DNA of 64,000 nt from Microbacterium caowuchunii (lineage in GTDB: Bacteria > Actinomycetota > Actinomycetes > Actinomycetales > Microbacteriaceae), in the NCBI RefSeq assembly GCF_008727755.1, contig NZ_CP044231.1:62001-126000 (forward strand), read 5' to 3'. Position 1 is the stretch's first letter, and every line of letters starts with the position of its first letter. Both the position numbers and the translations under genes were made by a program. Of this stretch, positions 28,474 through 51,179 are shown one piece after another. Below the pieces are notes generated by a model. It did not search any database. It was given only the letters and a program-made list of their open reading frames with translations, and was not told the DNA's origin.

Positions 28474-28517
28474 CCGACCGACGAACCCGACCGACCCCCA
28501 CGATTGCCGAGGACCCC

Positions 28518-35468: not shown

Positions 35469-36500
35469 ATGACCGATCTCACCGCCTTCGCCTTCGGACT
35501 CCCCAAGGCGGAGCTCCACCTGCACCTCGAGGGGACGCTGGAGCCGGAACTGAAGTTCGCCCTCGCCGCCCGCAACGGCATCGAACTGGCGGAGAAGACC
35601 GTCGAGGACGTCCGCGCCACCTACGACTTCACCGACCTGACGAGCTTCCTGGCCGTGTACTACCCCGCGATGCAGGTGCTGCAGACCGCGGAGGACTTCC
35701 ACGATCTCGCCTGGGCATACCTGGAGCGTGCGGCAGCGCAGGGCGTCGTGCACGCGGAGATGTTCTTCGACCCGCAGGCGCACACCAGCCGCGGCGTGCC
35801 GTTCGCGAACGTCATCACCGGATACCGCCGCGCCGCCGTCCGTGCGCAGGACGAACTCGGCATCTCGGCCGAGCTGATCATGTGCTTCCTGCGCGACTTT
35901 TCCGCGGAGTACGCGATGGCGACCCTGATGGAGGCGCTCCCCTACAAGGCGTGGATCCTCGGGGTCGGCCTCGACTCCGACGAGCGCGACAACCCGCCGG
36001 CGAAGTTCGCCGCCGTCTTCGAGCGCGCCAAGGCCGAGGGCTTCTTCCTCACGATGCACTGCGACATCGACCAGATCGGCTCCGTCGACAACATCCGCAC
36101 GGTCCTCACCGGGATCGGCGTCGATCGCATCGACCACGGCACGAACATCGTCGAGGACCCGGAACTGGTCGCCCTCGCGATCGAGAAGGGGATCGGCTTC
36201 ACCTGCTGCCCGGTCTCGAACTCGTTCGTGACCGAGCAGATGAAGGCGGACGAGATCGTGGGGCTGCTGCGCCAGGGCGCTCGCGTCATGCTGAACTCGG
36301 ACGACCCGGCCTACTTCGGCGCCTACGTCGGGGACAACTACGTCGCGCTCGCCGAGCAGGCCGGTCTGTCGGAGGCCGAGCTCGTGCAGCTGGCGGTCAA
36401 CTCCTTCGAGGCCTCGTGGCTCACGCCCGCACGCCGGGCCGCGTACATCGCGCGGGTGCACGAGTACGCTGCCTCGCACAGCGCGGCGATCCCCGTCTGA
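35469..36500 (+). CDS. Adenine/adenosine deaminase-like protein lacking the HAGE glutamate
   Basis: 343 residues, ATG 35469. It has the ADA fold: HLHLEGTLEPE with H17/H19, MCFLRDFSAEYA near 138, GVGLDSDE (166-172), IDHGTNI with H223 and NSDDP with D278/D279. The GLDS-x-E and HGTNI sequences resemble adenine (6-aminopurine) deaminases more than adenosine deaminases. However, where the family has HAGEEG (catalytic Glu as proton donor) this protein has MHCDIDQ (H197 to Q202). The enzyme may therefore use another acid or be changed in substrate. Co-transcribed with the regulator and the next deaminase-like gene. Confidence 0.85.
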   Translation: MTDLTAFAFGLPKAELHLHLEGTLEPELKFALAARNGIELAEKTVEDVRATYDFTDLTSFLAVYYPAMQVLQTAEDFHDLAWAYLERAAAQGVVHAEMFFDPQAHTSRGVPFANVITGYRRAAVRAQDELGISAELIMCFLRDFSAEYAMATLMEALPYKAWILGVGLDSDERDNPPAKFAAVFERAKAEGFFLTMHCDIDQIGSVDNIRTVLTGIGVDRIDHGTNIVEDPELVALAIEKGIGFTCCPVSNSFVTEQMKADEIVGLLRQGARVMLNSDDPAYFGAYVGDNYVALAEQAGLSEAELVQLAVNSFEASWLTPARRAAYIARVHEYAASHSAAIPV

Positions 36501-36524: not shown

Positions 36525-37160
36525 ATGAGCGAAATCCTTCCGGCGCCGGCAGGGGCCGCGGACGAGGATGCGGCGAGCCGCCGGCTCGGCGCCCGCATCC
36601 GCGAGCTGCGCACCGGGCGCGGCCTCACCCTCGTGCAGGTGGCCGCCGCCACGGGGCTGTCCCACCCCTTCCTCAGCCAGCTCGAACGCGGCCTCGCCCA
36701 GCCGAGCCTCGCGTCGTTGCGGCGCATCGCGGTGGCGCTGGAGACCAGCCCGATCGAGCTGATCGCCGCATCCGACGGGGATGCCGGGACCCCCGGTGCC
36801 GTGGAGGTCTCGCGGGCCGGAGAGGGGGCGCTGCCGGAGGGCTTCGCGTCCGGGGATGCCCGTCTGCTCGCGCACGGAGCGGCGGCCTTCCACCCCATGG
36901 AGGTCACCGCGGACGCGCTGGAACCCGGGGAGCTCTTCGTGCACGACGAGGAGGAGATCGTGTACGTGGTGGAGGGCGCCATCCGGGTCGATCTGGATGG
37001 CGCGGTGCACGACCTCGGCCCCGGCGACTCGATCTACTATCCGGGCGGCGTCTCGCACCGGTGGTGGTCGCGGGACGGGGAGGGTTACCGCCTCATCGTC
37101 GTGAAGAGCGCGGGTTCGCCCCGGGCCGGCCGGGTGCGCCCGGCGGAGGGAAGCGCATGA
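36525..37160 (+). CDS. XRE-family regulator with C-terminal cupin domain
   Basis: 211 residues from ATG 36525; a GTG at 36501 in the same frame is possible. Residues about 19-80 are a helix-turn-helix (RRLGARIRELRTGRGLTLVQVAAATGLSHPFLSQLERG). Residues about 135-200 are a cupin (LFVHDEEEIVYVVEGAIRVDLDG, then GDSIYYPGGVSHRW) expected to bind a small effector. This architecture is common in regulators of amine and heterocycle catabolism. Located between two deaminase-like genes and overlapping the second (ATGA). A paralogue lies at 46924-47568. Likely an autoregulator of this block. Confidence 0.88.
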   Translation: MSEILPAPAGAADEDAASRRLGARIRELRTGRGLTLVQVAAATGLSHPFLSQLERGLAQPSLASLRRIAVALETSPIELIAASDGDAGTPGAVEVSRAGEGALPEGFASGDARLLAHGAAAFHPMEVTADALEPGELFVHDEEEIVYVVEGAIRVDLDGAVHDLGPGDSIYYPGGVSHRWWSRDGEGYRLIVVKSAGSPRAGRVRPAEGSA

Positions 37161-38227
37161 TCTCGTACCAGGACTACCTGCAGCTGCTGCCGAAGACCGA
37201 GCTGCACTGCCATTTCGTGTCGACCATGAACGCCGCGACCTTCCTCGAGCTCGCCGGCAAGCACGGTGTCGCCCTGTGGGGATCCGATCCGGAGACGCTC
37301 TTCGACTTCGCGGATCTCGTCGACTTCCTGGTGGGATTCCGTGCCGCGCACGACGTGCTGCGTGATCCGGAGGACTTCGCCCGGGTCGCCTGGGAGGGCG
37401 TGCGGGACGCGGTGGCGCAGGGCAACCTCCGCTACCGGGAGTACTACGTCAACCCGCAGTACTTCGCCGCGCGCGGGGTGGAATACCTGGAGGTGATGGA
37501 GCCCATCATCGCCGGACTCCGCCGCGCTGAGCGGGATTTCGGGGTGGGCTTCGCGATCATCGCAGCGATCAACCGGCGTGACGACGCGGCATCCGCGGTG
37601 GAGATGGTGCGCCAGGTGATCGCGCATCCACTGCCGGAGGTCGTGGGGATCGGCCAGGACGATCTCACCCCGGAGAACACCGAGGATCCGACCCGCTTCG
37701 CCGCCGCCTACGAGCTCGCCGCGGCCCACGGGCTCAAGCGCACGGCGCACGTCGGCGAGACCGACGCCGCGACCTCGGATGCGGTGCGCCAGGCGATCGA
37801 GGTACTCGGGTGCGAGCGCCTCGACCACGGCTACCGGATCACGGACGATCCCGAGGTGGTCCAACTGGCCCGGGAGCGCGGGATCGCCTTCGCGACCACG
37901 CCGGTGTCGACCACGATCTGCTCGGACTGGGCGCTGGACGAGGCGCACCGCATCCGGGCGATGATCGACGCGGGGCTGATGGTCACGGTGTCGACCGACG
38001 ACGCCATGTTCTTCCGCACGGACCTCGGGCGCGAGTACCGGGAGGGGCTGTTCGCGATGGGCGTGGATGCGGCGACGGCGAAGCAGATCGCCCTGAACGG
38101 GATCACGGGCGCGTTCTGCGACGAGGCACGGAAGGACCGCCTGCGGGCGGAGTTCCGCGCTCAGTTCGCCGCCCTCGACGCCGTGCTGGCACCCGCCGAC
38201 TGGGCCTCCGCCGTTCCGGCGTCGTAA
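37157..38227 (+). CDS. Adenosine deaminase-like enzyme with intact catalytic site
   Basis: 356 residues, ATG 37157 overlapping the regulator stop. ADA-family metal site: HCH (H17, H19), AHVGE with H198 and E201, LDHGYRI with H224, and STDDAMF with D281/D282. All catalytic residues are present, unlike the gene at 35469. It could act on adenosine, methylthioadenosine or another amino-purine derivative. Its stop codon is immediately followed by the family-2 repeat (38226). Confidence 0.88.
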   Translation: MISYQDYLQLLPKTELHCHFVSTMNAATFLELAGKHGVALWGSDPETLFDFADLVDFLVGFRAAHDVLRDPEDFARVAWEGVRDAVAQGNLRYREYYVNPQYFAARGVEYLEVMEPIIAGLRRAERDFGVGFAIIAAINRRDDAASAVEMVRQVIAHPLPEVVGIGQDDLTPENTEDPTRFAAAYELAAAHGLKRTAHVGETDAATSDAVRQAIEVLGCERLDHGYRITDDPEVVQLARERGIAFATTPVSTTICSDWALDEAHRIRAMIDAGLMVTVSTDDAMFFRTDLGREYREGLFAMGVDAATAKQIALNGITGAFCDEARKDRLRAEFRAQFAALDAVLAPADWASAVPAS

Positions 38228-38622: not shown

Positions 38623-40185
38623 TCAGGCGGCGGCGATCAGCTCCGCCGCCCGCTCGGCGATCGCGACGGTCGGCGCCTGCGTGTTGCAGGTCGGGATGCT
38701 GGGCATGACCGACGCGTCGGCGACCCACAGCCCCTCCAGCCCGTGGACCTTCAGCCCCGGGTCGACGACCGCGAGCTCGTCGGTCCCGATCCGGGCGGTG
38801 CCGGAGCAGTGGAAGAACGTGCCGATGTTCTGACGTACGAACTGCGTCTTCTCCTCCCGCGAGAGTCCGCGGACGGGCGTGATCGGCCCCTCGGCGAGCT
38901 CGGCGTAGGCGGATGCGGCGACGAGATCCTGCACCGTATCGACCGCCTCGACCATGGTGGCGAGGTCGGTCGGGTCGGCCAGGTAGTTCGGGTGGAAGTC
39001 CGCCGCTGCATCCGGGTCTGCGGACCGCACGCGCACCCAGCCGACGCTGCGGGACCGGTACAGCCCCGGCACGAGCGCGAACACGCGGTTGCCGGACAGG
39101 TCGTGCGCCGCGTGCAGCGTCTCGTCCCCGCGGGACCCGTGCGCGACCACCGTGTGCATGTCCGGTCCGGAGGCCGCGTAGGAGCTGCGCCAGTTCAGCA
39201 TCGCGCCCCCGCCGTTGCCGATCACCGGGCCGAGGTCCGCTCGGGCGCGGAAGTTCATCCCCAGGATCAGCGGATGGTCCTGGAAGTTCTCGCCGACACC
39301 GGGCAACGCGTGCACCGGCCGGATGTCGGCGGCGGAGAGGCGGGCGGGGTCGCCGATGCCGGACAGCTGCAGGAGCCGGGGCGTGTCCAGTGCGCCGGCG
39401 GTCAGCACGACGCGCGCGGCGGAGGTCGTCACGAGCTCCCCGCCGACGACGTGCCGGATGCCGGTCACGACTCCGGCCGAGAGGACGAGCGCGTGCACGC
39501 GGCTGTCCACCACGACGTCGAGGTTCGGCCGGGCGAGGGCGGGTTCGAGGTATCCGCGGGCGGTGCTCCAGCGCTCGAACGAGCCGTCCGCGCCGACGAT
39601 CGCGTTGTAGTCCGCGTAGACGGCGCCCTCGTTGTCGGCGCCGTTGGCGTCGTCGATCACGGGCAGGCCACGATCGGCGGATGCGGCGATCAGCGCGTGC
39701 GCGATGGGGTGCACGTCGGCGAGGGGCCCGACCCGCATCGGGCCGTCGGTGCCGCGGAACGCGGGGTCACCGCCCGCCCGCGTCTCGGACCGGCGGAAGA
39801 AGGGGAGCAGGTCGTCGAAGCCCCACCCGGTTGCTCCGGCATCCGCCCACGCGTCGTAGTCGGCGCGGTTGCCGCGGTACCAGAGCATCGCATTCGTGGA
39901 GGAGCTGCCGCCGAGAACCTTGCCGCGGGGCATCGCGAGCGCGCGGCCGAGCACGTGCTCGGTGGGGGTGGATCGGTAGCCGTGGTCGTAGGGCCCGCCG
40001 ATCAGGGCGTCCCAGTGTGCGGCGTCGAGCACCTCGCGGACGCCCCGGTGGTCGGGTCCGGCCTCGACGAGCAGCACCCGGGCGTCCGGGTCCTCGGACA
40101 GACGCGCGGCCAGCACGCAGCCGGCCGCGCCGCCGCCCACGACCAGGTAGTCGTAGGCGGCGGCGGGGGAGGGGACGACGGGCAT
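38623..40185 (-). CDS. GMC family oxidoreductase
   Basis: 520 residues from ATG 40185. FAD-binding GGGAAGCVLAARLSE (17-31), MPRGKVLGGSSSTNAMLWYRGN in the N-terminal family signature, GALDTPRLLQLSGIGD in the second signature, and FHCSGTARIG near 462-471 with the catalytic His of the C-terminal active site. GMC enzymes oxidise alcohols (choline, glucose, side-chain alcohols) to aldehydes or ketones. It is the last gene of the minus-strand operon and overlaps the ThDP subunit by 1 nt (TGATG). With the aldehyde dehydrogenase, the pair could oxidise an alcohol made by the pathway. Confidence 0.92.
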   Translation of the reverse strand: MPVVPSPAAAYDYLVVGGGAAGCVLAARLSEDPDARVLLVEAGPDHRGVREVLDAAHWDALIGGPYDHGYRSTPTEHVLGRALAMPRGKVLGGSSSTNAMLWYRGNRADYDAWADAGATGWGFDDLLPFFRRSETRAGGDPAFRGTDGPMRVGPLADVHPIAHALIAASADRGLPVIDDANGADNEGAVYADYNAIVGADGSFERWSTARGYLEPALARPNLDVVVDSRVHALVLSAGVVTGIRHVVGGELVTTSAARVVLTAGALDTPRLLQLSGIGDPARLSAADIRPVHALPGVGENFQDHPLILGMNFRARADLGPVIGNGGGAMLNWRSSYAASGPDMHTVVAHGSRGDETLHAAHDLSGNRVFALVPGLYRSRSVGWVRVRSADPDAAADFHPNYLADPTDLATMVEAVDTVQDLVAASAYAELAEGPITPVRGLSREEKTQFVRQNIGTFFHCSGTARIGTDELAVVDPGLKVHGLEGLWVADASVMPSIPTCNTQAPTVAIAERAAELIAAA

Positions 40186-40802
40186 CAGTTGTGCTCGCTC
40201 GGTCCCATGATGGTGATGCCCTCGATCGACTCGACGTGCCGGACGAAGACGTACTTGTCCTCCCGGCCGTCCGAGTGCTTGCGCGTGATCCCCGGCTCCA
40301 GGATGCCGTCGGTCTTGGCGACGAGCACGTAGGGCTCCTCGGCGGCCAGGCCTGCTTCGCAGTGCCGATCGAAGTCCTCGAGGGTGGTCGCGGTGTACGC
40401 GTGGGTGATGCCGGCGCCGCGGGCGATGCCGGCGAGGTCGACGCGACCCTGCTGGGTGTGGGTGCGGGGGCCGCCGATCGACTGGTAGCACTCGTTGTCC
40501 CACACCACGATGAACAGGTTCTTCGGCTGCTCGTTCGAGACGGTGGCGAGCGCGCCCAGGTTGAACAACAGGCCGCCGTCGGTGTCCAGGGACACGACCT
40601 GACGGTGCGGCAGGCCCACCGCGAGCCCGAAGGCCTCCGGGGTCACGCAGCCGAGCTGCTGCTGGAACAGGCTCGCCTCGCGCATGTGCGGAGCCGCGTT
40701 GTACCACTCGTCCACCGCTCCGCCGAGCGAGAGGATCACCAGGGCGTCGTCGGTCAGGCGTGCACCGAGCAGCTTCATGCATTCATAACGGCTCATGCTC
40801 AT
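40185..40802 (-). CDS. Thiamine diphosphate-dependent decarboxylase, C-terminal (TPP-binding) subunit
   Basis: 205 residues, ATG 40802. Similar to the beta subunit of sulfopyruvate decarboxylase and to the C-terminal half of phosphonopyruvate decarboxylase. The ThDP/Mg motif is DTDGGLLFNLGALATVSNEQ with the later Asn in WDNECYQ. It overlaps the alpha subunit gene by 4 nt (ATGA) and the GMC gene by 1 nt. The pair would decarboxylate a 2-oxo acid to an aldehyde, which the aldehyde dehydrogenase of the operon could then oxidise. Confidence 0.88.
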   Translation of the reverse strand: MSMSRYECMKLLGARLTDDALVILSLGGAVDEWYNAAPHMREASLFQQQLGCVTPEAFGLAVGLPHRQVVSLDTDGGLLFNLGALATVSNEQPKNLFIVVWDNECYQSIGGPRTHTQQGRVDLAGIARGAGITHAYTATTLEDFDRHCEAGLAAEEPYVLVAKTDGILEPGITRKHSDGREDKYVFVRHVESIEGITIMGPSEHN

Positions 40803-41299
40803 CGCACGATCCCCCCTCCGAGGACGACAGCGGCGTGGTAGTAGGACGAGTAGGCGGTCTCGTAGGCGTTGACGATGGCCTGCTCGATCTGGTCGACCTC
40901 GTGCACGATCGTGTACGGGGTGCGCAGGGTCTGCAGCAGCGGCTCCATGGTGACCCCGTGCGGGATGGCCCACCAGTTGTTCTCGCCCATCTCGCCGCGG
41001 TAGCTCATGATCATGACGACCGGGATGCCGGCACCGAGGCCGAGCCGGGCGAGGTGCTCGGTCGCGGCACGCAGACCGGAGTTCTCCATCACCAGGACGG
41101 CGCGCTTGCCGGAGAGGAAGACGCCGCCGGCGAGGGCCGCGCCCTCGCCCTCGTTGGTCACCGGGATGGTGCGGATGTCGGCATCCGCATCCAGGGCCGG
41201 GTACAGCTCCTTCAGCAGTGAGTCGGGGAGGTAGGTGGCGACGCTGACCCCGGCCTTCTTCAGGCCGCGGATCACCGCCTCGACGGCATCGGCTCTCAT
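40799..41299 (-). CDS. Thiamine diphosphate-dependent decarboxylase, N-terminal (PYR) subunit
   Basis: 166 residues from ATG 41299, with a clear AAGGAG ribosome site. Resembles the ComD-like alpha subunit of sulfopyruvate decarboxylase: VSVATYLPDSLLKELYP, VTNEGEGAALAGGVFLSGKRAVLVMENSG (the Glu that activates ThDP is in NEGEG), then MIMSYRGEMGENNWWAIPHG. The two-subunit form is uncommon in bacteria outside sulfonate metabolism, which makes a 2-oxo acid with a large side chain a possible substrate. A long hairpin lies 38 bp upstream. Confidence 0.88.
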   Translation of the reverse strand: MRADAVEAVIRGLKKAGVSVATYLPDSLLKELYPALDADADIRTIPVTNEGEGAALAGGVFLSGKRAVLVMENSGLRAATEHLARLGLGAGIPVVMIMSYRGEMGENNWWAIPHGVTMEPLLQTLRTPYTIVHEVDQIEQAIVNAYETAYSSYYHAAVVLGGGIVR

Positions 41300-41336
41300 G
41301 GTGTCTCCTTGTCGTGCTCTCTCGTGTCTGATGTCT

Positions 41337-41398
41337 GTCGACTCGCCAGGAAATGCGGATGCGGCGGTCCCGACACCCGCATTTCCTGGCTAGTCGAC
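41337..41398. terminator. Long hairpin between the LLM monooxygenase and decarboxylase genes
   Basis: Arms of 22 bp with one mismatch (start GTCGACTCGCCAGG at 41337; end CCTGGCTAGTCGAC to 41398) around an 18-nt loop. It overlaps the TAG stop codon (41390-41392) of the monooxygenase gene. Could reduce read-through to the three downstream genes or stabilise the upstream mRNA. Confidence 0.75.
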
Positions 41399-42778
41399 CG
41401 GGGTGTGGGGGGAGGCGCTCGCGGTGAGGCGGTGGGCGCGGTGCGTGGCGGCCAGACGCGGGGTGCCGCTGATGTGCTCGCGGAGCGTCGACCCCTCGGG
41501 GGTGCCGACCCGGCCGCGGCCGGCCAGCACGGGCACGACGAGCTCGATGAACGCGCGGTAGGCGGCGGGGCCGCCGAACGTCGGTTCCAGCATGATCCCG
41601 TCGATACCCGAGCCGTCGATGATCGCCTCGATCTCGTCGGCCACCTCCTCCGGCGTACCGGTCACCTGGAACCCGCGGATCGCCTTCGTGCGGAACTGAT
41701 CCAGGATGTCGCCGACCCTCATCTCCGGGTCCTGCCGGGCGTAGCGCTGGATGAGCGTCTGTCCGAGGTCCGTGGTGAGGTCGACGACCCGGGTCTCCGG
41801 GTCCAGCCCGGTGAGGTCGAGGCCGGTGATCCCGGCGAACATGACGGCGGCGTCGTCCCGGCCGAGCAGCTCCTCGTACTCGGCGCGGAGGGCCTCCGCC
41901 CCGGCGCGGGTGGGCGCGACCGTCACGGTCATCCCGGTGACCACGGCGATGTCCTCGGGGTGGCGGCCGTTGCGGACCGCCTGGTCCCGGATGTCGTGGA
42001 CGTGCGCCGCCGCACTCTCGATCGTCTGCCCCTGGATGAATACGGCCTCGGCGTTCCGCGCCGCGTACGCCCGGCCGCGGTCGGACGTTCCGGCCTGGAA
42101 GAGCACGGGGGTGCGCTGCGGGGTCGGGGGCACGGCGAAGATCCCCTGGGAACGCTGGTAGGCATCGTCGACCTCGACCCGGTGCAGCTTCGCCGGGTCG
42201 GCGTACACCCGCCGGGCGCGGTCGCGCACCTCGGCGTCGTCGTCCCAGCTGTGCTCCCAGTACCGCAGGCAGGTGTCCAGGAACGAGTCCGCCGCATCGT
42301 ATTTGCCGTCGTGCGAGAGCTTCTCGGTGACGCCGAACAGCTCATCGGTCGTCGCCTGGGAGCTGCCGGTGACGACGTTCCAGCCGATGCGTCCCTGCGT
42401 GAAGCGGTCGAGACTCGCGAAGCGGCGGGCGGTGGCGTACGGGCGCTCCACGGTGGTGGGGGAGGTCACGACGAAGCCGAGGTTGTCGGTCGCCCGGGCC
42501 AGCGCGGTGATCGCGAGCATCGGGTCGAGCGCCGGGAACTGGATGCCGTGGGCGGCGACCTCTTCGGGCATGCGCCCGCCGAGGGTGGCGTAGCCGTAGG
42601 TGTCGGCGAAGAACAGGAAGTCGAAGCCCGCCGCATCCAGCTCCTGAGCCAGCTCCACCCAGTAGTCCAGGCGGTCCCAGTCGTCGCCGCGGCCCTCGGG
42701 GTGCGTCCACGTCGGCATCCCGTTGGAGGGGTTCATCATCTCGAAGACCCCGAGTCGGATCCGCTTCTTCTCGTTCAT
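41390..42778 (-). CDS. LLM-class FMN-dependent monooxygenase (NtaA/SnaA/DszA type)
   Basis: 462 residues, ATG 42778 overlapping the ALDH stop codon by 4 nt. Luciferase-like fold: LGVFEMMNPSNGMPTWTHPEGRGDDW at the N-terminus, FDFLFFADTYG (about 53-63), LGFVVTSPTTVERPYATARRFASLDRFTQGRIGWNVVTGSSQ (about 100-143), PVLFQAGTSDRGRAYAARNAEAVFIQGQT (about 215-243). This FMNH2-using branch cleaves C-N or C-S bonds in heterocycles and chelators (nitrilotriacetate, dibenzothiophene, pristinamycin precursors). RutA is a more distant relative, so pyrimidine ring opening is only a possibility. A flavin reductase gene was not found in the window. Confidence 0.9.
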   Translation of the reverse strand: MNEKKRIRLGVFEMMNPSNGMPTWTHPEGRGDDWDRLDYWVELAQELDAAGFDFLFFADTYGYATLGGRMPEEVAAHGIQFPALDPMLAITALARATDNLGFVVTSPTTVERPYATARRFASLDRFTQGRIGWNVVTGSSQATTDELFGVTEKLSHDGKYDAADSFLDTCLRYWEHSWDDDAEVRDRARRVYADPAKLHRVEVDDAYQRSQGIFAVPPTPQRTPVLFQAGTSDRGRAYAARNAEAVFIQGQTIESAAAHVHDIRDQAVRNGRHPEDIAVVTGMTVTVAPTRAGAEALRAEYEELLGRDDAAVMFAGITGLDLTGLDPETRVVDLTTDLGQTLIQRYARQDPEMRVGDILDQFRTKAIRGFQVTGTPEEVADEIEAIIDGSGIDGIMLEPTFGGPAAYRAFIELVVPVLAGRGRVGTPEGSTLREHISGTPRLAATHRAHRLTASASPHTPVD

Positions 42779-44280
42779 ACGACCATCACCACGCTCTTCG
42801 TCTCCAGGTAGTTCTCGAGGCCCTGCGCCCCGTTCTCGTAGCCCCATCCGGACTCCTTGTGGCCGCCCTTGGGCAGTTCGGGGCCGAGGAAGGAGTGGCA
42901 GTTCACCCACACCGTGCCCGCCTGCAGCCGGGCGGCGATCCGGTGCCCGTTGCTCAGGCCCTCGGTCCACACGCTCGCGGCCAGGCCGTAGTCGCTGTCG
43001 TTGGCCCAGCCGACGACCTCGTCCACGTCGTCGAAGGGTGTGACGACCGCGACCGGGCCGAAGATCTCCTCGCGCATGAGGCGCATGTCCGCGGTCACGT
43101 CGGTGAGCACGGTGGGCGTGTAGAAGGTGCCGTTCGCGCCGTCGCGCTCGCCGCCGGTGACGACGGTGACGCCCTCGGCCACCCCCTCGTCGACGAACGC
43201 GGCGACGCGCTCCGCCTGTGCGGTGCTCACGAGCGGGCCGAGGTCCGTGGCGGCGGCGAGTCCGTGCCCCATCCGCAGGCTCCGGCCGGCGTCGGCCATG
43301 CCCGCCACCACCGCGTCGTAGACGTCCCGGTGGGCGTAGATGCGAGCGCTGGCGACACAGACCTGGCCGCCATTGTCGAAGATGCCCCGGGAGACGCCCT
43401 CGATCGCGGCCGGCAGGTCCGCATCCGGCATGATGATCGACGGCGACTTGCCGCCGAGCTCGAGGGTCAGCCGGGCGAGCCGGGAGGATGCGGTCTGCAC
43501 GAGGCGCTTGCCGACAGCCGTGGATCCGGTGAACGCGATCTTGGCCACACCGTGGTGCTCGACGAGGGCCTGTCCCGCCTCGGTCCCGTAGCCGGTGACG
43601 ATGTTGACGACGCCTTCGGGGACGCCCGCCTCCTGGAGGAGCCGCCCGAGGTACAGGGCGGTCAGGGACGTGTTCTCGGCCGGCTTCAGCACGAGGGTGC
43701 AGCCGGCGGCCAGGGCCGGTGCGAGCTTCATCGCGGTCATCACCATGGGCGAGTTCCACGGCACGATCGCCGCCACCACGCCCACGGGTTCCCGCCGTGT
43801 GTAGGCGAAGACCTCTTTCCCCTCGGGGGTGCGGGAGAGGGATGTGGGGATGGTCTCGCCGAGGATCTTGGTGGGCCAGCCGGCGTAGTAGCGGAACTGG
43901 TTGATGGCGGCCGGGATCTCCCCGAACCGGGACGTGCGCAGGCTCTTGCCCTGGTCCAGGGTCTCGAGCTCGGCCAGGGCGTCGAGGTGCTCCTCCATGA
44001 GGTCGGCGATGCGCCAGAGGAGGCGGGATCGGTCGGCCGGCCGCATCCGGGCCCAGCCGTCGAGCGCGTAGCCCGCAGCGGTCACGGCGCGGTCGACGTC
44101 GGCGGCGGATCCGCGCGCGACCCGGGCGAGCTCCTCGCCGGTCGCGGGGTCGAGCGATGCGAAGTCGGCTCCGTCCGCGGACGGGGCCCAGCGGCCGCCG
44201 ATCAGGTGGCGCCCGGGGTCGTCGGCGAGGAAACGGAGGACCCGTTCGCTCAGCTGCCCGCGCTCGGTGTGGATGGTCAT
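42775..44280 (-). CDS. Aldehyde dehydrogenase (NAD(P)+)
   Basis: 501 residues, ATG 44280. Catalytic Cys308 in NGGQVCVAS and Glu275 in LELGGKSP, cofactor motif FTGSTAVGKR (250-259), and the N-terminal PWNSPM. Resembles betaine-aldehyde or gamma-aminobutyraldehyde dehydrogenases. In the operon it is placed to oxidise an aldehyde, either from the ThDP decarboxylase or the GMC oxidase. Confidence 0.95.
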   Translation of the reverse strand: MTIHTERGQLSERVLRFLADDPGRHLIGGRWAPSADGADFASLDPATGEELARVARGSAADVDRAVTAAGYALDGWARMRPADRSRLLWRIADLMEEHLDALAELETLDQGKSLRTSRFGEIPAAINQFRYYAGWPTKILGETIPTSLSRTPEGKEVFAYTRREPVGVVAAIVPWNSPMVMTAMKLAPALAAGCTLVLKPAENTSLTALYLGRLLQEAGVPEGVVNIVTGYGTEAGQALVEHHGVAKIAFTGSTAVGKRLVQTASSRLARLTLELGGKSPSIIMPDADLPAAIEGVSRGIFDNGGQVCVASARIYAHRDVYDAVVAGMADAGRSLRMGHGLAAATDLGPLVSTAQAERVAAFVDEGVAEGVTVVTGGERDGANGTFYTPTVLTDVTADMRLMREEIFGPVAVVTPFDDVDEVVGWANDSDYGLAASVWTEGLSNGHRIAARLQAGTVWVNCHSFLGPELPKGGHKESGWGYENGAQGLENYLETKSVVMVV

Positions 44281-44313
44281 GTCAGCCTCTCGGTGTGATG
44301 TCGGGGCGGGCGG

Positions 44314-45687
44314 TCAGTGGGAGAAGAGACCGGCGAGGTCGTCCTGGGTGGCGATCCACTCGGCCCGTCGGGCGAACAACCCCGGCACGAGCGAGCGGAC
44401 CCGGTCGATCAGCTCGGCGAGGTCGGCGTTCACGAGGCGCCCGTCGCGCACCACCACCGAGCCGTCGACCATGGTGAGGTCGACGTCGGATCCGCGGACG
44501 GCGTGCACGAGATTGTGGTGGATGTTGGCGTGCCCGCCGGCGGGCAGGAGCGGAGTCATCCGCGGGGTGTCCGTGCGCACCGCGACGAGGTCGGCCTTGC
44601 GTCCGGCCGTGATGGCGCCCAGCTCGTCACCGCGGCCGATGGCGGCCGCCCCTCCGCGGGTGGCCATGCCGAGCACCTGCCACGAGTCCATCGCGGCGGC
44701 GTCCATCGTGCGGAGTTTGCCGAGGAGGCTCGCGACCTTCATCTCCTCGAACATGTCCAGGTTGTTGTTCTCCTTCTCGCCGTCGGTGCCGAGACCGACC
44801 GCGACGCCCGCCGCGAGCATCTCCGCCACCGGTGCCATGCCGCTCGCGAGCTTCATGTTCGAGACCGGGTTGTGTGAGACGCCGACACCGCGTCGGGCGA
44901 TGAGGTCGATCTCCTCCTGATCCAGCCAGACGGCGTGGGCGATCATGGCGTGCGGGGCGTCGAAGAACCCGAGCTGCTCGAGCGCCATCATCGGTCGCGT
45001 GCCGTACCGCGAGCGGAAGTCGGCGAGCTCGATCTCCGATTCGCTGCAGTGCGTGTACAGGCCGGTGCCGTAGGCGCGGGCGAGGTCCACGGCACGCCGC
45101 TGACCGGCGGCATCCGCGTAGAACGGGTGCTCCAGTCCCACCCACGGCATGATCCGGCCGTTGGCGGCACCGGTCCACTCCGTCAGCATCCGCTCGTTGT
45201 CATCGAGCGTGTCGAAGTAGTCGAAGTCCGGGTGCTCGCCCACGTAGTTGACGGAGACGAGCCGGTTGCCCAGCGTGCTCGCCGCGCGGGCCGCGCCGTC
45301 CATGAACCGCCACATGTCGACGACCGTGGTGGTGCCCGAGAGCAGCCCCTCGGCGTAGCAGAGCCAGGCGGCGGCTTCGGCCTCGTCCGGGCGCAGCACC
45401 CGGTGCATGGGGTCGATGTGGATGCGCAGCCATTCCCACACCGGGAGGTGTTCGGCGGTGCCGCGCAGCATCCCGCTGTGGTGGTGGGCGTTGATCAGGC
45501 CGGGCATCAGCACGCGGTCGGGCAGGTCGATGCGAGCGGCGTCCGGATGCGCGGCGAGCAGTTCGTCGCGGGGGCCGACGGCGGCGATCGTGTCGCCGAC
45601 GACGTGCACGGCCGAGTCGGTCAGAACGCTGCGGTCGTCGTCCATCGTCACGACGATGTCGGGGAGGAGAAGGGTGGAGTCGCTCAT
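44314..45687 (-). CDS. Amidohydrolase, TrzA/AtzB/MtaD-like deaminase
   Basis: 457 residues, ATG 45687. Subtype III amidohydrolase with the HxH pair in NAHHHSGM (68, 70), THCSES near 210, VSHNPVSNMKLASGMAPV near 300, and the Asp in GLGTDGEKENNN. The same arrangement is seen in methylthioadenosine/S-adenosylhomocysteine deaminase and in triazine hydrolases. A heterocycle deaminase fits the operon. It lies between the binding-protein gene and the ALDH gene. Confidence 0.9.
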   Translation of the reverse strand: MSDSTLLLPDIVVTMDDDRSVLTDSAVHVVGDTIAAVGPRDELLAAHPDAARIDLPDRVLMPGLINAHHHSGMLRGTAEHLPVWEWLRIHIDPMHRVLRPDEAEAAAWLCYAEGLLSGTTTVVDMWRFMDGAARAASTLGNRLVSVNYVGEHPDFDYFDTLDDNERMLTEWTGAANGRIMPWVGLEHPFYADAAGQRRAVDLARAYGTGLYTHCSESEIELADFRSRYGTRPMMALEQLGFFDAPHAMIAHAVWLDQEEIDLIARRGVGVSHNPVSNMKLASGMAPVAEMLAAGVAVGLGTDGEKENNNLDMFEEMKVASLLGKLRTMDAAAMDSWQVLGMATRGGAAAIGRGDELGAITAGRKADLVAVRTDTPRMTPLLPAGGHANIHHNLVHAVRGSDVDLTMVDGSVVVRDGRLVNADLAELIDRVRSLVPGLFARRAEWIATQDDLAGLFSH

Positions 45688-45728
45688 GGGGGCCTCGGGG
45701 GATCGGAGGGATGCGGACGGCGGGACGA

Positions 45729-46781
45729 TCAGGACCGGGTGAAGAGGTCGGGGGTCTCCTCGTACACCTCGGCCAGGAGGCTGAGGTCGAACAGGTCGGC
45801 GACGTCGAGGCGGAAGCCGGCGGCGGCGAGACTCGCGATGGTCTGCTTCTGCAGTTCCGGGGAGACCGTGAACAGTCCGTTCGCCGTCGTCTCTTCCGAG
45901 ACGACCAGCAGGTCCGCCTGGGCGGTGGCGCTGGCCAGCGAGGTCTCCGGGGAGAGCCCGAGGTCCGCACTGTAGGTCTCGACGGCGAGGGTCGCGCCGA
46001 TGGCGGGGTCGCCCACCGCATCCGTCCATCCCCGGATCTCCGCGCGGAGGAAGTCCTTCAGCACCTCGCGGTCGTTCGCGATGGTGTCGTCGGTCGCGGT
46101 GACGACGTGCCCGACGAACGGGAGGCCGTTGTCGGCGAAGAGCAGATCGGTCACGGCGAAGCCCTGCACGGTCAACGTCACGGACTGGCTGGTGACGAAG
46201 GCGATGAGCCCGTCGACCTCGCCGGTCGTCAGCGGCGCCGGGTCGTACTGCACGGGCACGATCTCGAGCTCGTCGGGGGCGATGTCGTTCGCGGCGAGGA
46301 AGGCGTCGAACACCGGGCGGTTCGCATCCTGCACGCCGATCTTCTTGCCGATCAGCTGCTCCGGGGTGCGGATGTCGGCGCCATCGGCGAGCGAGGTGAT
46401 CGTGAACGGGTTCTTCTGGAAGGTGGCGCCGACGACCTTCAGCGGGGCGCCTTCGTTCGCCACCGCGGCGCCGATCGAGACCGCGTCGGTGAGGGCGATG
46501 TCGGCGGTTCCGCTGAGCAGTTCGGCCACGCCGCTGGACGGGCCGGGGACCAGCGTCACGTCGGCGAAGCCGGCGTCCGTGAAGTACCCGCGGTCCTGCG
46601 CGATCAGCTCGCCCGACCACTCCTCGTTGAGGATCCAGCTCAACTGGACGGTGAGGTCGCCGTGACCGTCCTCCGGGGCGGCGGGCGCAGCGGAGGAGGC
46701 GCAGGCGGTCACCGTGAGGGCTGCGGCGGTGAGCACCGCGGCGGTGGCGGCGATACGGGCGAAGGAGCGGGGGCTTCTCAT
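45729..46781 (-). CDS. Orphan NMT1-type substrate-binding lipoprotein
   Basis: 350 residues from ATG 46781; signal peptide with lipobox VTAC (C27). Strikingly like the protein at 31655: both carry LVPGPS, GTADI, GATFQ, GKKIGVQD, VPVQYDPAPL and a similar C-terminus. No ATPase or permease genes accompany it; the nearest set is 31762-35293 (32762-35293), 11 kb away. It may deliver its ligand to that transporter, adding a second specificity. It is the first gene of the block-3 operon and its promoter carries a palindromic operator. Confidence 0.88.
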   Translation of the reverse strand: MRSPRSFARIAATAAVLTAAALTVTACASSAAPAAPEDGHGDLTVQLSWILNEEWSGELIAQDRGYFTDAGFADVTLVPGPSSGVAELLSGTADIALTDAVSIGAAVANEGAPLKVVGATFQKNPFTITSLADGADIRTPEQLIGKKIGVQDANRPVFDAFLAANDIAPDELEIVPVQYDPAPLTTGEVDGLIAFVTSQSVTLTVQGFAVTDLLFADNGLPFVGHVVTATDDTIANDREVLKDFLRAEIRGWTDAVGDPAIGATLAVETYSADLGLSPETSLASATAQADLLVVSEETTANGLFTVSPELQKQTIASLAAAGFRLDVADLFDLSLLAEVYEETPDLFTRS

Positions 46782-46923: not shown

Positions 46924-47568
46924 TCAGGAGGTGCGGGCGTGCACGAGGAGCACCGTCACCGGCTCGTCTCCGGTGATGCTCCAGCGGTTGCGGATCGCGC
47001 CCGGGTGGGCGAGGGCGTCCCCCGGGCCGAGGACCCACTCGCCCCGGCCATCGAGGGTGACCGTGAGGGTGCCGGATACGACGTACACGGTGTTCTCGCC
47101 GTCCGACTCGAACCAGTCGCCGAGGTAGGGCGCGCGCCCCAGGCGGTACTCCTGCACGGTGGCGGCACGCGCGGCGCCGGAGGAGATGATGCGGCTGAGC
47201 GCCGCGTCGTCCGTTTCGTCGACGGCGACGAACTCCCCCTCGTGTCGCCGGGTGACGTGGATGGGCTCGGGCTCGTCGTCGCCCGGCAGCAGATCGGACG
47301 GGGAGATGCCGAGCACCTTCGCCAGCCGGAAGAGCGTCACGATCGAGGGCATCGTGTGGCCGCTCTCGATCTGGCTGAGGAACGGCTGGCTGATCTCGGC
47401 GGCCGCGGCCAGTGCCCGCATCGAGAGGGAGTTCGCGGTGCGCGCGGCCCGGATGCGGCGGCCGAGCGAGATGCCGATGAGGCTGTCGTCGGCGCCGCCC
47501 GGCGGAACCGGGGGGCCTGCGTCGGCGGAGGGCACGGCTCCAGGATAGGCGGGAGAGTCCGGTGCCAC
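46924..47568 (-). CDS. XRE-family regulator with cupin domain (block-3 regulator)
   Basis: 214 residues from a GTG at 47568; other GTG starts about 10 residues downstream are possible. Helix-turn-helix about 34-94 (SLGRRIRAARTANSLSMRALAAAAEISQPFLSQIESGHTMPSI), then a cupin about 130-210 (YLGDWFESDGENTVYVVSGTLTVTLDGRGEWVLGPGDALAHPG). Same architecture as the regulator at 36525. The gene lies upstream of the block-3 promoter and immediately downstream of the molybdenum hydroxylase gene (3 nt gap), so it is likely co-transcribed with xdh and acts on GCAATCA palindromes. Confidence 0.88.
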   Translation of the reverse strand: MAPDSPAYPGAVPSADAGPPVPPGGADDSLIGISLGRRIRAARTANSLSMRALAAAAEISQPFLSQIESGHTMPSIVTLFRLAKVLGISPSDLLPGDDEPEPIHVTRRHEGEFVAVDETDDAALSRIISSGAARAATVQEYRLGRAPYLGDWFESDGENTVYVVSGTLTVTLDGRGEWVLGPGDALAHPGAIRNRWSITGDEPVTVLLVHARTS

Positions 47569-47571
47569 GGG

Positions 47572-50319
47572 TCAGCTCCCCTGCACGAGGCGCCACACCC
47601 GGTCGCGGCTGAAGGGCTGCTCGAAGGGCCGGCGGCCGACGGCGCGGGCGATGGCGTTGCCGATCGCCGGCGCGACCGGGTTGTACGGGGCCTCGCTCAT
47701 CGACTTCGCCCCGAAGGGTCCGACCGTGTCGTCCGTGTCGGCGAAGTACACCTCGGTGTCCGGGACGTCGGCGAACTGCGGCACGCGATAGGTGCGGAAC
47801 ACCGGCGTGATCACCGCTCCGGCGCCGTCGGTCATGACCTCCTCGTAGAGCGCGCTGCCGAGTCCCTGCGCGGCACCACCCTCGATCTGTCCGCGGCACT
47901 GCGCCGGGTTCAGGACGGTGCCCGCATCCGCCGCCTGCACGGACTGCAGCACCCGTACGGTCCCGGTGGCGGGGTCGACCGCCACGCGCACGGCGTGCAC
48001 GTTGAACGCGAGCGAGCGGATGTCGCCGAGCTCGCTGCCGTCCGCCGTCAGACCGTCCTCTCCCCGTTCGGATGCCGGGGCGGCCGCCACGATCTCGGCG
48101 AAACCGACCGTGCGCGCCGCAGTCACGACGCCGTCGGCGCTCACGCGCGCATCGCTCTCGGCGGTGCCGGTGATCTCGGCGGCGATGCGCCGCATCCGGG
48201 ACGCCAGCGTGCGGCAGGCGGCATGGAGCGCCTTTCCCGCGACCGTGATGCCGGTCGATGCGAAGGCGCCGGTGTCGTGCGCGACGGCGTCGGTGTCGGC
48301 GTGCCAGAGGGCGAGGCGGTCGAACCCGACCTCGAAGACGCTGGCCGCGATCTGACGGAGCACGGTGGAGGTGCCGTTGCCGAACTCGGCGGTCCCCGCC
48401 TGCAGCAGATACGTGCCGTCGGCGCGCAGGGTCGCGTGGGTGTGCGAGACGTGCCCGAACGGGGCGATCGTCGCGATCATCGCCGTGGCCATGCCCTCCC
48501 CGACCAGCCATCCCTCCGGCGCGCGGCTGCCGTTGCCGCTGGCCAGGGCGTCCCGGGCGAGGTCCAGGCACTGGTCCAGGCCGTGGCTTCCCCACACCAG
48601 GCCGTTGTCGAGGCCACCGTGCTCGGGGCGGAGCGCGTTCATCCGCCGCAACTCGAAGGGGTCGATGCCGAGACGCTCGGAGAGCATGTCCATCGCGGAC
48701 TCGACGCCGAGCATGACCTGGCCGAGGCCGTACCCGCGGAACGCCCCGGACGGAACGTTGTTGGTGTAGACCGCCTCGGCATCGATGCGGCGGGAGGGCA
48801 CCCGGTACACGTGCGTCGATTCGGACACCGCGTGGAAGAGCACGCCTCGGGAATGGTTGCCGTAGGCGCCCGCGTCGCTCAGGACGTCGACCGCCATCGC
48901 CGTCAGAGCGCCGTCCGCATCCGCGCCCAGGCGTACCCGGACCCGCATCGGATGCCGGAGCGCGGCGCGCTGGAACTGGTCGGTGCGGGAGAACTCGTAC
49001 GCCACCGGACGCCCGGTGCGCAGCACGGCGAGGGTGACGAGGTCCTCGGTGAAGATCTCCTGCTTGCCGCCGAAGCCGCCGCCGACGCGGGCCGCGTACA
49101 CCCGGACCCGGTCGCGTTCCAGATCGAAGACACGGCACAGTTCGTCCCGCGTGAGGAAGGGCACCTGGGTGGACGAGCGGATGACGAGCCGGCCGTCCTC
49201 GTCGAGCCATCCGATCGCGCCGTGCGTCTCCAGCTGCGCGTGGGTGACGCGGGAGGTCTGCCAGGTGCCCTCGACCGTCACGGCGCTGGCAGCGAGGGCG
49301 TCTTCGACGTCGTCGCCGTGCGACTCGTGGAAGGACAGCACCGTGTTCCTCGCCGCGTCGTCCACCCGGTCCGCGGGCGTGCGGTCCGGATGGATCACCG
49401 GAGCGGCGCCGCTCCGGGCGGTTTCCGGGTCGAACACGGCGGGCAGCACGTCGTACTCCACGCGCACCAGGCGGCAGGCGGCATCCGCTGCGGCGGCGGT
49501 CTCCGCGACGACCGCCGCGACGCGCTGGCCGATGAAGCGGACGGTGTCGTCGAGCACTCGCGTGTCGTCGGGATCGTCCTCCCGGTGCTCGTGCCGTCCG
49601 GTGGAGAAGAGGGTCTTCGGGGCGTCCTCGTGGGTGAGCACGGCGACCACGCCGGGGATCGCGAGGGCCGCGGATGCATCGATCGAACGGATGCGGGCGT
49701 GCGCGTACGGGCTCGCCACGACGCGCAGGGTCAGCGCGGTTCCCGTCCAGGGCTGGTCGGGCGTGCCGACGACATCGAAGGTGTAGGGCTCGAGGCCCTG
49801 CACGATCCGCCGGCCCGCCTCCGGCCGCACGGACCCGCCGACGCCGCTGGGCGCCGTGGCGGGGCGCGGGCCGGTCTCCCGTATCGGGCCGAGCACGGAT
49901 TCGCGGATCGCCTCGCGGATCGGGCGGTATCCGGTGCACCGGCAGAGGTTGCCCTTCATCCGGCGGTCGAGGTCGTCGAGATCGCTCTCGCACAGAGTCG
50001 AGGCGGTGACGCTCATACCGGGCGTGCAGAAGCCGCACTGGAAGCCGAACTTCTCCACGAGCGCCTCCTGCACCGCGTGCAGTGCGTCGCCCGGGGCGAG
50101 GCCGGCCGCCGTCGTGACGCGGGTGCCCTCCGCTCGCACGGCCGGGACGATGCAGGAGTGCACGGGTGCCCCGTCCACGAGCACGGAGCACGCGCCGCAG
50201 TCGCCGGCGTCGCAGCCCTTCTTCACCTCGGTGTGACCGTGCTCGCGAAGCAGCGTCCGCAGGCACTGGCCCGCCGCGGGCTCCGCCTCGACGGGCGCAC
50301 CGTTGACCTCGAACCTCAT
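47572..50319 (-). CDS. Molybdenum hydroxylase, fused 2Fe-2S and molybdopterin subunits (xanthine dehydrogenase family)
   Basis: 915 residues from ATG 50319. Residues 1-150 are the two-cluster iron-sulfur part: plant-type C36, C41, C44, C56 and the second cluster C95, C98, C126, C128. Residues about 165-915 are the Moco-binding part with VGGGFGGKQE and GAFRGYGLGQVM; the C-terminal active-site Glu is E876 in GAKSMSEAPYNP. In xanthine dehydrogenases the Glu motif is GVGE; here the flanks differ. It hydroxylates a C-H bond next to a ring nitrogen, with electrons passed to the FAD subunit. Starts 4 nt inside the FAD subunit gene (ATGA). Confidence 0.92.
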   Translation of the reverse strand: MRFEVNGAPVEAEPAAGQCLRTLLREHGHTEVKKGCDAGDCGACSVLVDGAPVHSCIVPAVRAEGTRVTTAAGLAPGDALHAVQEALVEKFGFQCGFCTPGMSVTASTLCESDLDDLDRRMKGNLCRCTGYRPIREAIRESVLGPIRETGPRPATAPSGVGGSVRPEAGRRIVQGLEPYTFDVVGTPDQPWTGTALTLRVVASPYAHARIRSIDASAALAIPGVVAVLTHEDAPKTLFSTGRHEHREDDPDDTRVLDDTVRFIGQRVAAVVAETAAAADAACRLVRVEYDVLPAVFDPETARSGAAPVIHPDRTPADRVDDAARNTVLSFHESHGDDVEDALAASAVTVEGTWQTSRVTHAQLETHGAIGWLDEDGRLVIRSSTQVPFLTRDELCRVFDLERDRVRVYAARVGGGFGGKQEIFTEDLVTLAVLRTGRPVAYEFSRTDQFQRAALRHPMRVRVRLGADADGALTAMAVDVLSDAGAYGNHSRGVLFHAVSESTHVYRVPSRRIDAEAVYTNNVPSGAFRGYGLGQVMLGVESAMDMLSERLGIDPFELRRMNALRPEHGGLDNGLVWGSHGLDQCLDLARDALASGNGSRAPEGWLVGEGMATAMIATIAPFGHVSHTHATLRADGTYLLQAGTAEFGNGTSTVLRQIAASVFEVGFDRLALWHADTDAVAHDTGAFASTGITVAGKALHAACRTLASRMRRIAAEITGTAESDARVSADGVVTAARTVGFAEIVAAAPASERGEDGLTADGSELGDIRSLAFNVHAVRVAVDPATGTVRVLQSVQAADAGTVLNPAQCRGQIEGGAAQGLGSALYEEVMTDGAGAVITPVFRTYRVPQFADVPDTEVYFADTDDTVGPFGAKSMSEAPYNPVAPAIGNAIARAVGRRPFEQPFSRDRVWRLVQGS

Positions 50320-51179
50320 GCCGCCGCTCCCGCCAGTTCCGACCGGATCCGTGCCGCCAGCTCGACGCTCACGCCGCGGCGCCAGTCCGCGCTGCCGAGC
50401 GGATCGGTGTAGTAGTCCTCGGCCGCCGAGACGGATGCCGCGAGCGTCGCCGCATCCGGCAGCTCCGGGAACCGCAGCACGGCCGGGCGCGTCGTCGCGG
50501 CCGTCACGACGAAGGTCGCCGCCCCGTCGTCGTCGACCCGTCCGGTGACGACCGCTCCCGAGCGACCGAGCTCGGCCAGTGCGATCTTGCGCAGGAGCGC
50601 GGGGGAGCGAAGGGCCGGGGCGGGCAGCTCGACCGCTCGGAGCACCTCGCCCGGGGCGAGCGCGTTGGTGCCGTTGCCGGTCGGCAGGTGCGCGACCGGT
50701 ATGCGGCGCTCGCCGCCGTCGGGCGTCCAGACCACGGCGATGCCGTCCAGCGCGGCGGCCAGCGAGATCATCGCGCCGGCCGCGAACGAGCGGCAGATGT
50801 TGCCGCCGACGGTGGCGGTGTTCCAGACCTTGAACGACGCGAGCAGGGCGTTGGCCGCATCCGGCACGAGCGATACCGCCTGCCAGTCCGCGGGGACCGA
50901 TGGGAGGTCGTCGGCGCGCCCTTCCGCCCACGCCACGAGGCGCGCGATCGTGCAGGTGGCGCCGATGCGGAGGCCGTCCTCGGATACCTCGATCCCGGAC
51001 CAGCCCATGCCGGTGAGGTCGACGAAACCCGTCGTGGCGGGCTGCGGCTCGCTCATCAGCCAGGTCCCTCCGGCGATGAGCACTTCCCCGGAAGCGAGCG
51101 CGAGGTCCGCGCGGGAGCGTGCCACGCGGTACGTCTCGATGCTCGTGATATCCACGGGGCGCCCTCCGATGTTGGTCAC
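50316..51179 (-). CDS. Molybdenum hydroxylase FAD-binding subunit
   Basis: 287 residues, GTG start at 51179. CoxM/XdhB-like FAD fold: SGEVLIAGGTWLMSE near the start, RIGATCTIARLVAW (about 71-84), WNTATVGGNICRSFAAGAM (about 118-136) and the C-terminal CO-dehydrogenase-FAD domain. It accepts electrons from the 2Fe-2S centres of the fused partner and passes them to NAD or a quinone. XdhC lies 118 bp upstream on the same strand. Confidence 0.9.
   Translation of the reverse strand: MTNIGGRPVDITSIETYRVARSRADLALASGEVLIAGGTWLMSEPQPATTGFVDLTGMGWSGIEVSEDGLRIGATCTIARLVAWAEGRADDLPSVPADWQAVSLVPDAANALLASFKVWNTATVGGNICRSFAAGAMISLAAALDGIAVVWTPDGGERRIPVAHLPTGNGTNALAPGEVLRAVELPAPALRSPALLRKIALAELGRSGAVVTGRVDDDGAATFVVTAATTRPAVLRFPELPDAATLAASVSAAEDYYTDPLGSADWRRGVSVELAARIRSELAGAAA

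Follow-up and report, generated by a model that had tools for sequence, protein, structure and literature searches.

In a 64,000-nucleotide (nt) window of the Microbacterium caowuchunii genome (contig NZ_CP044231.1, positions 62,001 to 126,000), seven minus-strand genes form an operon (46781-38623 in window coordinates) that, together with a neighboring plus-strand gene for a divergent adenosine-deaminase-family protein (ADA2, 37157..38227), probably (we put it at about 0.65) constitutes an accessory branch of purine catabolism, judging from sequence and gene context. We propose the full mechanism more tentatively, at rather less than even odds: the branch would take a carbon substituent off an adenine-type modified base and pass the remainder to a xanthine-dehydrogenase-type molybdenum (Mo) hydroxylase (XDH) and to the ureide genes. 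The model starts from what is observed, i.e., the genes, their conserved association, a purine neighborhood, Rieske oxygenase genes where one operon enzyme is missing, and a shared palindrome. Below, L labels a fetched locus and G a genome, G000 being that of the window.

The gene calls and gene order of the operon were confirmed in the window, and the Pfam families agree with the single minus-strand run of seven genes named in a first-pass annotation. Reading along the minus strand, they encode a substrate-binding lipoprotein of the NMT1/THI5 type (SBP, 45729..46781; Pfam NMT1, 3.6e-37); an amidohydrolase resembling adenosine and 5'-methylthioadenosine (MTA) deaminases (DEAM, 44314..45687; Amidohydro_1), whose closest solved structure is the MTA/S-adenosylhomocysteine (SAH) deaminase 4f0r (5.5e-59); an aldehyde dehydrogenase (ALDH, 42775..44280; Aldedh, 1.1e-173); a luciferase-like flavin monooxygenase (LLM) of the NtaA/DmoA family (41390..42778; Bac_luciferase, TIGR03860); the predicted alpha and beta subunits of a thiamin diphosphate (ThDP) decarboxylase (ThA, 40799..41299, TPP_enzyme_N; ThB, 40185..40802, TPP_enzyme_C); and a GMC-family alcohol oxidoreductase (38623..40185; GMC_oxred_N/C). 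Starts and stops overlap, as had been reported, at three junctions: by 4 nt at ALDH/LLM, by 4 nt at ThA/ThB and by 1 nt at ThB/GMC.

Among the matches listed (for ALDH the best 25 of 43, for DEAM the best 25 of 31), none of the seven proteins reached the cut-off of a single-function NCBIfam model. Nor did we find a paper describing the gene set or the candidate pathways in the openly searchable literature, which leaves subscription papers outside and was judged mainly by titles and abstract openings; within that range, the suggestion that the set was undescribed stands. The novelty would lie in an unfamiliar combination of known enzyme families within nucleobase catabolism. The ThDP pair fell short of the cut-offs for the sulfopyruvate decarboxylase ComDE (100.6 against 147.95 bits for TIGR03845, and 87.5 against 221.5 for TIGR03846), and on this ground we rejected a role in sulfonate catabolism (isethionate, sulfopyruvate). 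A literature search found no paper on the enzyme of PDB entries 9u8q, 9u8r and 9u8s.

The association of these genes extends well beyond the window. A scan of a species collection with ThA as the query yielded 39 loci, spanning Microbacteriaceae, Dietzia, Rhodococcus, Blastococcus, Pseudonocardia, Rhizobiales, Methylorubrum, Komagataeibacter and others. ThB follows ThA within 74 nt in every one of them, and GMC comes next, no more than 211 nt behind ThB, in 34 of the 38 evaluable loci (no GMC gene lies behind ThB in L031, L032, L040 and L041; L014 ends there and was left out of the count). In L026 (11220-11582), which is counted among the 34, only a 22% GMC fragment stands behind ThB, followed by an unrelated gene. 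LLM, at 59% identity or more, lies ahead of ThA in 15 of the 39 loci, with ALDH also ahead in 14 of those 15, and a genome search covering 30 of the scan loci found a DEAM ortholog (at least 62% identity) in 25. Motifs that we take to be catalytic are kept: the NEGEG motif of ThA (carrying the ThDP glutamate) is invariant and the D-x-D-G and D-N motifs of ThB are kept in all 39 loci, the GMC active-site histidine is present in each of the 32 relatives with alignment coverage there, and the Cys and Glu motifs of ALDH are kept in 25 of 25 aligned relatives.

Within the genus, we searched 247 genomes of at least 90% completeness, including that of the window, with E-value limits of 1e-60 for ThB, 1e-130 for LLM, 1e-150 for DEAM, 1e-170 for GMC and 1e-90 for ADA2. 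ThB was present in 20 genomes and LLM in exactly the same 20; DEAM occurred in these 20 plus G577, ADA2 in these 20 plus G515 (21/247), and GMC in 19 of them, the exception being G648. Hypergeometric p values, which ignore kinship, ranged from 1.7e-27 to 7.5e-30 over the 247 genomes. The association is far above chance, and the question posed in the first-pass annotation, whether the genes occur separately in other genomes, is answered in the negative for the genus, apart from these three single exceptions. G648 carries two LLM copies and no GMC above threshold, whereas G577 has DEAM, and G515 has ADA2, without ThB; such exceptions could reveal which step each enzyme serves. In eight of the 20 genomes, DEAM and ThB are on different contigs or separated by over 12 kb (13 and 15 kb in G569 and G620), so the link of DEAM to the other genes is not only physical. 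One of the eight, G490, is probably a single operon cut by an assembly break between contigs L006 and L057. The genome sets overlap, several of the locus genomes recurring among the 247 under other labels (G396 and G490, for example, show the same DEAM coordinates), and their counts are not independent.

As a control, we examined seven plasmid loci encoding distant ThDP proteins (31-38% identity), picked by hand from 55 records below 60%. Their neighborhoods were of the organic-acid, phosphonate or other kinds, and none of the seven had the DEAM/LLM/XDH set together, the plasmid gene tables being incomplete; an LLM-class gene was present in L078 and an amidohydrolase-family gene in L080. A search with ThB in 394 genomes of the class recovered two from the genus; seven others matched at 30-41% identity, and the 3.3-3.6 kb loci of these seven held no cluster like the lum genes discussed below.

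The window also supplies the purine setting. Directly upstream of the operon, as the first-pass annotation had it, are a gene for an XRE-cupin regulator (XRE2, 46924..47568; HTH_3 and Cupin_2), the XDH gene with fused FeS and Mo domains (47572..50319; MoCoBD_1/2, Fer2_2), a gene for the FAD subunit (50316..51179; weak XdhB-type matches) and one for an XdhC-type chaperone (51298..52389; XdhC_C, XdhC_CoxI), all on the minus strand. That annotation had made the Mo-hydroxylase the dedicated first step, a role that its distribution does not support. XDH was found in 106 of the 247 genus genomes, including all 20 with the operon core (at 72% identity or more) and 86 of the 227 without it. Because it is so widespread beyond the core genomes, XDH is better regarded as a general acceptor, and it looks like a general purine enzyme that receives the product of the pathway. 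Identity was at least 64% in 93 of the 106 genomes and only 50-59% in the other 13, which may hold another Mo-hydroxylase.

Although the range first drawn around the system, 38623..46781, does contain the operon genes, the set proved wider, taking in ADA2 and a urate/ureide cluster at 20.8-28.5 kb. The urate branch (20835..23157, on mixed strands) comprises 5-hydroxyisourate (HIU) hydrolase (-), 2-oxo-4-hydroxy-4-carboxy-5-ureidoimidazoline (OHCU) decarboxylase (-) and allantoinase (+), each above its cut-off (TIGR02962, TIGR03180 and TIGR03178). The ureide branch (23154..29891, plus strand), assigned from sequence matches, encodes an FmdA/AmdA-family protein, an amidase, a class V aminotransferase, allantoate amidohydrolase (above the NF006775 cut-off) and a second amidohydrolase, AH2. 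The amidase (24284-25870), between the FmdA/AmdA-family gene and the aminotransferase, carries an extension at its N terminus that, on inspection by eye, resembles AtzH. Despite the HIU hydrolase, OHCU decarboxylase and allantoinase, uricase (PF01014) gave no match in G000, and urate hydroxylase was not among the matches of a flavin adenine dinucleotide (FAD) monooxygenase at 16589-18397. Among 30 genomes searched (29 of those searched for DEAM, plus G000), uricase was found in nine, and in five of the nine it shares a contig with the core and is no more than about 40 kb away. Counted from DEAM, the distance is about 18 kb in Rhodococcus phenolicus (G411) and about 40 kb in G419, with G399, G401 and G410 in between at 20-21 kb. 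The idea that LLM is the missing uricase was dropped, as LLM-bearing genomes of this set occur both without uricase and with it (G396, G399, G401, G404 and G410).

Purine genes also surround the core or DEAM in relatives. Adenine-deaminase-like genes lie near one or the other in L019, L021-L025, L053, L055 and L056 (the two tested scored 349 and 366 bits, under the TIGR01178 cut-off of 472.5), and adenosine-deaminase-family genes do so as well. The same holds for a guanine deaminase above its cut-off, encoded on a plasmid of Rhizobium tumorigenes (L051), and L035 has a PRK08203-type gene, also above cut-off, near the core. In this way the proposed link to an N-heterocycle gained support, as purine catabolism. 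PRK08203 covers the 8-oxoguanine deaminase/AtzB cluster, for which a 2026 report describes three enzymes as N2,N2-dimethylguanine hydrolases (NdmH) and assigns the Pseudomonas aeruginosa 8-oxoguanine deaminase to that cluster too (PMC13054789). Since both activities fall in one cluster, the L035 gene could encode either; both would have altered guanines as substrates, a hint of modified bases. The same source describes the physiological context of NdmH as still under study (PMC13054789).

DEAM itself falls outside this cluster. It scored 228.5 bits against the PRK08203 cut-off of 532 and lacks the glutamine of the HxHxxQ motif, which is present in the L035 protein; in the 23 DEAM orthologs of the loci that position is M (8), L (4) or F (11), and never Q. 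Nor did DEAM reach the cut-off for 5'-deoxyadenosine deaminase, PRK07228 (313.3 against 522 bits). ADA2, for its part, exceeds the cut-off of TIGR01430 (229.6 against 216.55 bits). A suggestion that ADA2 substitutes for DEAM in L018 was dropped, because DEAM is present elsewhere in that genome. Three Microbacterium genomes have DEAM away from the core (L053:9077-18050, L055:9830-18891 and L056), near genes for a BMP-type ABC transporter and for an adenine-deaminase-like protein, and in L053 (weak SfnB match) and L055 (by eye) an acyl-CoA-dehydrogenase-fold protein adjoins it. In Subtercola (L052:8260-12096), a second LLM (48% identical to that of the window), DEAM (73%) and a gene like ADA1, described below, form one run that adjoins an NMT1-type ABC transporter.

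LLM had been read as a ring-cleaving enzyme, and a RutA-type role of this kind is not supported: against the RutA pyrimidine oxygenase model (TIGR03612), LLM scored 33.9 bits, far under the cut-off of 498.3. It passed the cut-off of TIGR03860 (408.3 against 279.7 bits), which covers the broad subfamily of NtaA/DmoA-family FMN monooxygenases. Its best PDB match was the riboflavin lyase 5w48 (337 bits, E 1.5e-99, query residues 2-440), which we take to be RcaE of Microbacterium maritypicum, followed by an alkane monooxygenase (283 bits) and dimethyl-sulfide monooxygenase (275 bits). The surroundings differ from the riboflavin lyase operon, with no flavin reductase or sugar kinase seen beside LLM by eye in the window.

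In the fetched alphaproteobacterial loci, no LLM ortholog was seen (L039 has a relative of only 27% identity, on the opposite strand), and most of these loci contain VanA/Rieske-family genes, a family that occurs in 18 loci in all. The annotated plasmid L051 encodes two VanA_C catalytic proteins that lack a Rieske domain; the Rieske protein is encoded separately, and a GST-like protein is present as well. The catalytic protein best matched SxtDIOX/SxtT, then NdmA/NdmB. A full-length Rieske gene stands near the core in Dietzia (L015), and a member of the same Rieske family directly ahead of ThA in Pseudonocardia (L033). Both the LLM and the Rieske oxygenase families attack alkyl C-H bonds, and the step that they share is therefore probably alkyl oxidation or N-dealkylation rather than ring cleavage. 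Two distant lineages have genes of the 2-oxoglutarate (2OG)-Fe(II)-oxygenase type within the cluster (L057:6531-7580, by eye; L058:2278-3342, by Pfam), a possible third oxygenase type for the same step.

The demonstrated chemistry closest to the operon, by analogy, is the lumichrome pathway of vitamin B2 catabolism, encoded by lumA-Y of Nocardioides simplex and reported in 2025 with a xanthine-oxidase-type enzyme, LumJ (PMC12746152). As described in that paper, LumM, a hydrolase, strips off the amino group adjacent to a carboxylate on the heteroaryl ring, the two-subunit ThDP enzyme LumK/LumL then decarboxylates the product, and the oxidases LumT and LumN act on aryl-CH2OH and aryl-CHO (PMC12746152). 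A two-subunit ThDP decarboxylase, a deaminating hydrolase and a Mo-hydroxylase are likewise clustered in the window, the likeness to LumK/L/M and LumJ being drawn at the level of enzyme class. Compared with the lum cluster as described there, the operon has LLM, a two-polypeptide Mo-hydroxylase and a purine neighborhood, whereas neither a P450 (LumU) nor an extradiol dioxygenase (LumE) was found among the profiled window proteins, or by eye in the other open reading frames.

On this analogy, a modified base would be taken up by SBP with an ABC transporter at 32.8-34.4 kb. LLM, or a Rieske oxygenase in relatives, would hydroxylate an alkyl, probably a methyl, group. From the families to which they belong, GMC would then oxidize the CH2OH to CHO, and ALDH the CHO to COOH. 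DEAM and/or ADA2, as deaminases by sequence, would remove the ring amino group at a point in the order that we infer, and ThA/ThB, like LumK/LumL, would release CO2 from the heteroaryl acid, leaving an ordinary purine for the general xanthine dehydrogenase. This scheme employs every operon enzyme. The thymine 7-hydroxylase/isoorotate decarboxylase and 5-hydroxymethylfurfural (Hmf) pathways also convert a ring methyl or hydroxymethyl group to a carboxylate that is then lost by decarboxylation; they use other oxygenase and decarboxylase families and are not known to involve deaminases. As to substrate, a modified base from RNA turnover appears the most likely class. Within it, 2-methyladenine, which occurs in 23S rRNA and tRNA, is a speculative and individually unlikely candidate that would employ every enzyme, being oxidized to a purine-2-carboxylate for ThDP decarboxylation, and would amount to dedicated recycling of carbon-methylated RNA bases.

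Several points weigh against removal of a carbon substituent within purine catabolism. The purine link rests on gene neighborhood, and the presence of two deaminases for one base is not clearly explained. No DEAM ortholog at 62% identity or above was found in G413, G414, G420, G421 and G422, out of the 30 genomes. UbiD-family decarboxylase genes lie beside ThA-ThB, without GMC, in L031 (1040-2461 and 5509-6858) and L040 (8571-9992), which come from Xanthobacteraceae and Anaerolineaceae genomes. Distant ThA/ThB genes in L049 adjoin a GMC gene (32% identity), so that the pairing of ThDP and GMC genes is not exclusive to this system. Finally, the nearest solved relative of LLM, riboflavin lyase, and NdmA and NdmB, two of the closer relatives of the Rieske protein, are N-dealkylases.

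This last point leads to the main rival, which we regard as possible yet clearly on the unlikely side: that LLM or the Rieske oxygenase cuts an N-alkyl chain, such as a cytokinin-like N6-substituent, off an adenine derivative, the side chain being broken down by GMC, the ThDP enzyme and ALDH and the base by ADA2/DEAM and XDH. The company of adenosine-deaminase-family and adenine-deaminase-like genes around the core would suit such a base. To our knowledge, the N7-demethylase NdmCDE has no ThDP, GMC or ALDH partners, and the ThDP-GMC pair would be left idle by simple N-demethylation. We know of no common N-alkyl adenine with a 2-oxo or 2-hydroxy acid side chain, and SxtDIOX/SxtT outrank NdmA/B as Rieske matches. 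RcaE, the best LLM match, does take an N-linked ribose chain off riboflavin, and according to the lumichrome paper it has not been found co-located with the lumichrome genes (PMC12746152). The alphaproteobacterial version of the cluster, with its Rieske-less catalytic subunit and GST-like partner, resembles NdmCDE, whose homologues were noted chiefly from Sinorhizobium and Mesorhizobium (PMC4408171). In NdmCDE, however, reductase and Rieske domain form one fused protein (PMC4408171), whereas the alphaproteobacterial loci have a separate Rieske protein and the window has LLM instead.

We consider it improbable that the operon serves pteridine or flavin catabolism parallel to the lumichrome pathway, in which GMC and ALDH would produce a pterin-6-carboxylate-like acid on which DEAM, the Mo-hydroxylase and the ThDP enzyme would act. 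The kinds of step match LumM, LumK/L and LumJ (PMC12746152), and the nearest solved relative of LLM is a riboflavin lyase, but the operon lacks both a P450 and an extradiol dioxygenase, XDH is common in genomes that do not have the core, and the neighborhood is one of urate/ureide genes and adenine-type deamination. A Variovorax pterin deaminase has 399 amino acids against the 457 of DEAM, lengths only being compared (PMC9513972).

A pyrimidine branch seems more doubtful still. It would start from the thiamin pyrimidine (hydroxymethylpyrimidine, HMP) or from 5-methylcytosine or 5-hydroxymethylcytosine, with the substituent oxidized before decarboxylation and deamination; the NMT1/THI5-type SBP and the sequence from CH2OH to COOH to loss of CO2 would fit it. 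Set against this are the purine genes around the core in several lineages and the co-occurrence of ADA2, and no gene specific to such a branch was noticed in the fetched neighborhoods, which were inspected mostly by eye without a dedicated search. The order given in the first-pass annotation (Moco hydroxylation, deamination, ring cleavage by LLM, decarboxylation and alcohol/aldehyde oxidation of an N-heterocycle) is very unlikely, for although one neighborhood does contain all of the enzyme classes, the distribution of XDH and the RutA score of LLM oppose it, and loci without LLM carry Rieske proteins related to N-demethylases and SxtT.

Removal of a carbon substituent from a modified purine remains our preferred, tentative account, and the flanking genes offer candidates for its control and uptake. 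A palindrome at 46853-46878 (read on the minus strand), GATTGC-N5-GCAATC overlapping GCAATCAATGATTGC, is an operator-like candidate site situated 72-97 nt upstream of the SBP start. An identical or nearly identical site precedes the first operon gene in L003, L004, L005, L008, L009, L010, L012, L013, L015 and L057. One of its two parts is exact in the window and in L004, L005, L008, L009, L012 and L057, with one mismatch in L003, L010 and L013 and two in L015. No such site was seen in L006 (whose sequence begins at the operon), L007, L011, L014, L016, L018, L027 and L028, and the same is true of four DEAM loci (L052, L054, L055 and L056). At up to two mismatches, the 15-mer was absent from six first-order Markov sequences as long as the window, whereas the N5 form arose 0.67 times per sequence at up to one mismatch (the window has one extra such match, at 21373), so that one-mismatch sites rest on their position. 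From its position, XRE2 is presumed to regulate the operon. A second XRE-cupin regulator, XRE1 (36525..37160, plus strand; 36% identical to XRE2), is encoded beside ADA1 and ADA2, as in L007, L008, L010, L012 and L013; ADA1 is a further adenosine-deaminase-family protein (35469..36500, plus strand; TIGR01430, 335.8 bits). Between GMC and ADA2, the intergenic segment 38230-38580 contains repeated segments around acaactcctgcagaaccgg and gcaggagttac.

The ABC transporter invoked for uptake belongs to a second NMT1-type SBP (31655..32728; BLAST identity with the operon SBP, 61%), which is followed by an ATPase (32762..33586; by eye from the sequence, 97% identical in L010 and L013) and a permease (33576..34412; by eye, 72-76% identical in L010, L012 and L013), all on the plus strand. 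The ATPase presumably serves both binding proteins.

For most modified bases freed by RNA turnover we know of no degradation route, and a conserved, patchily distributed ThDP cassette, shared by Actinomycetota and Alphaproteobacteria, would open their breakdown to genetic study. If the proposal is right, it would extend the heteroaryl ThDP decarboxylation described in 2025 and would place LLM and a split Rieske oxygenase in one pathway slot; were 2-methyladenine the substrate, this would be, as far as we know, the second case in biology of a heteroaromatic acid decarboxylated with ThDP.

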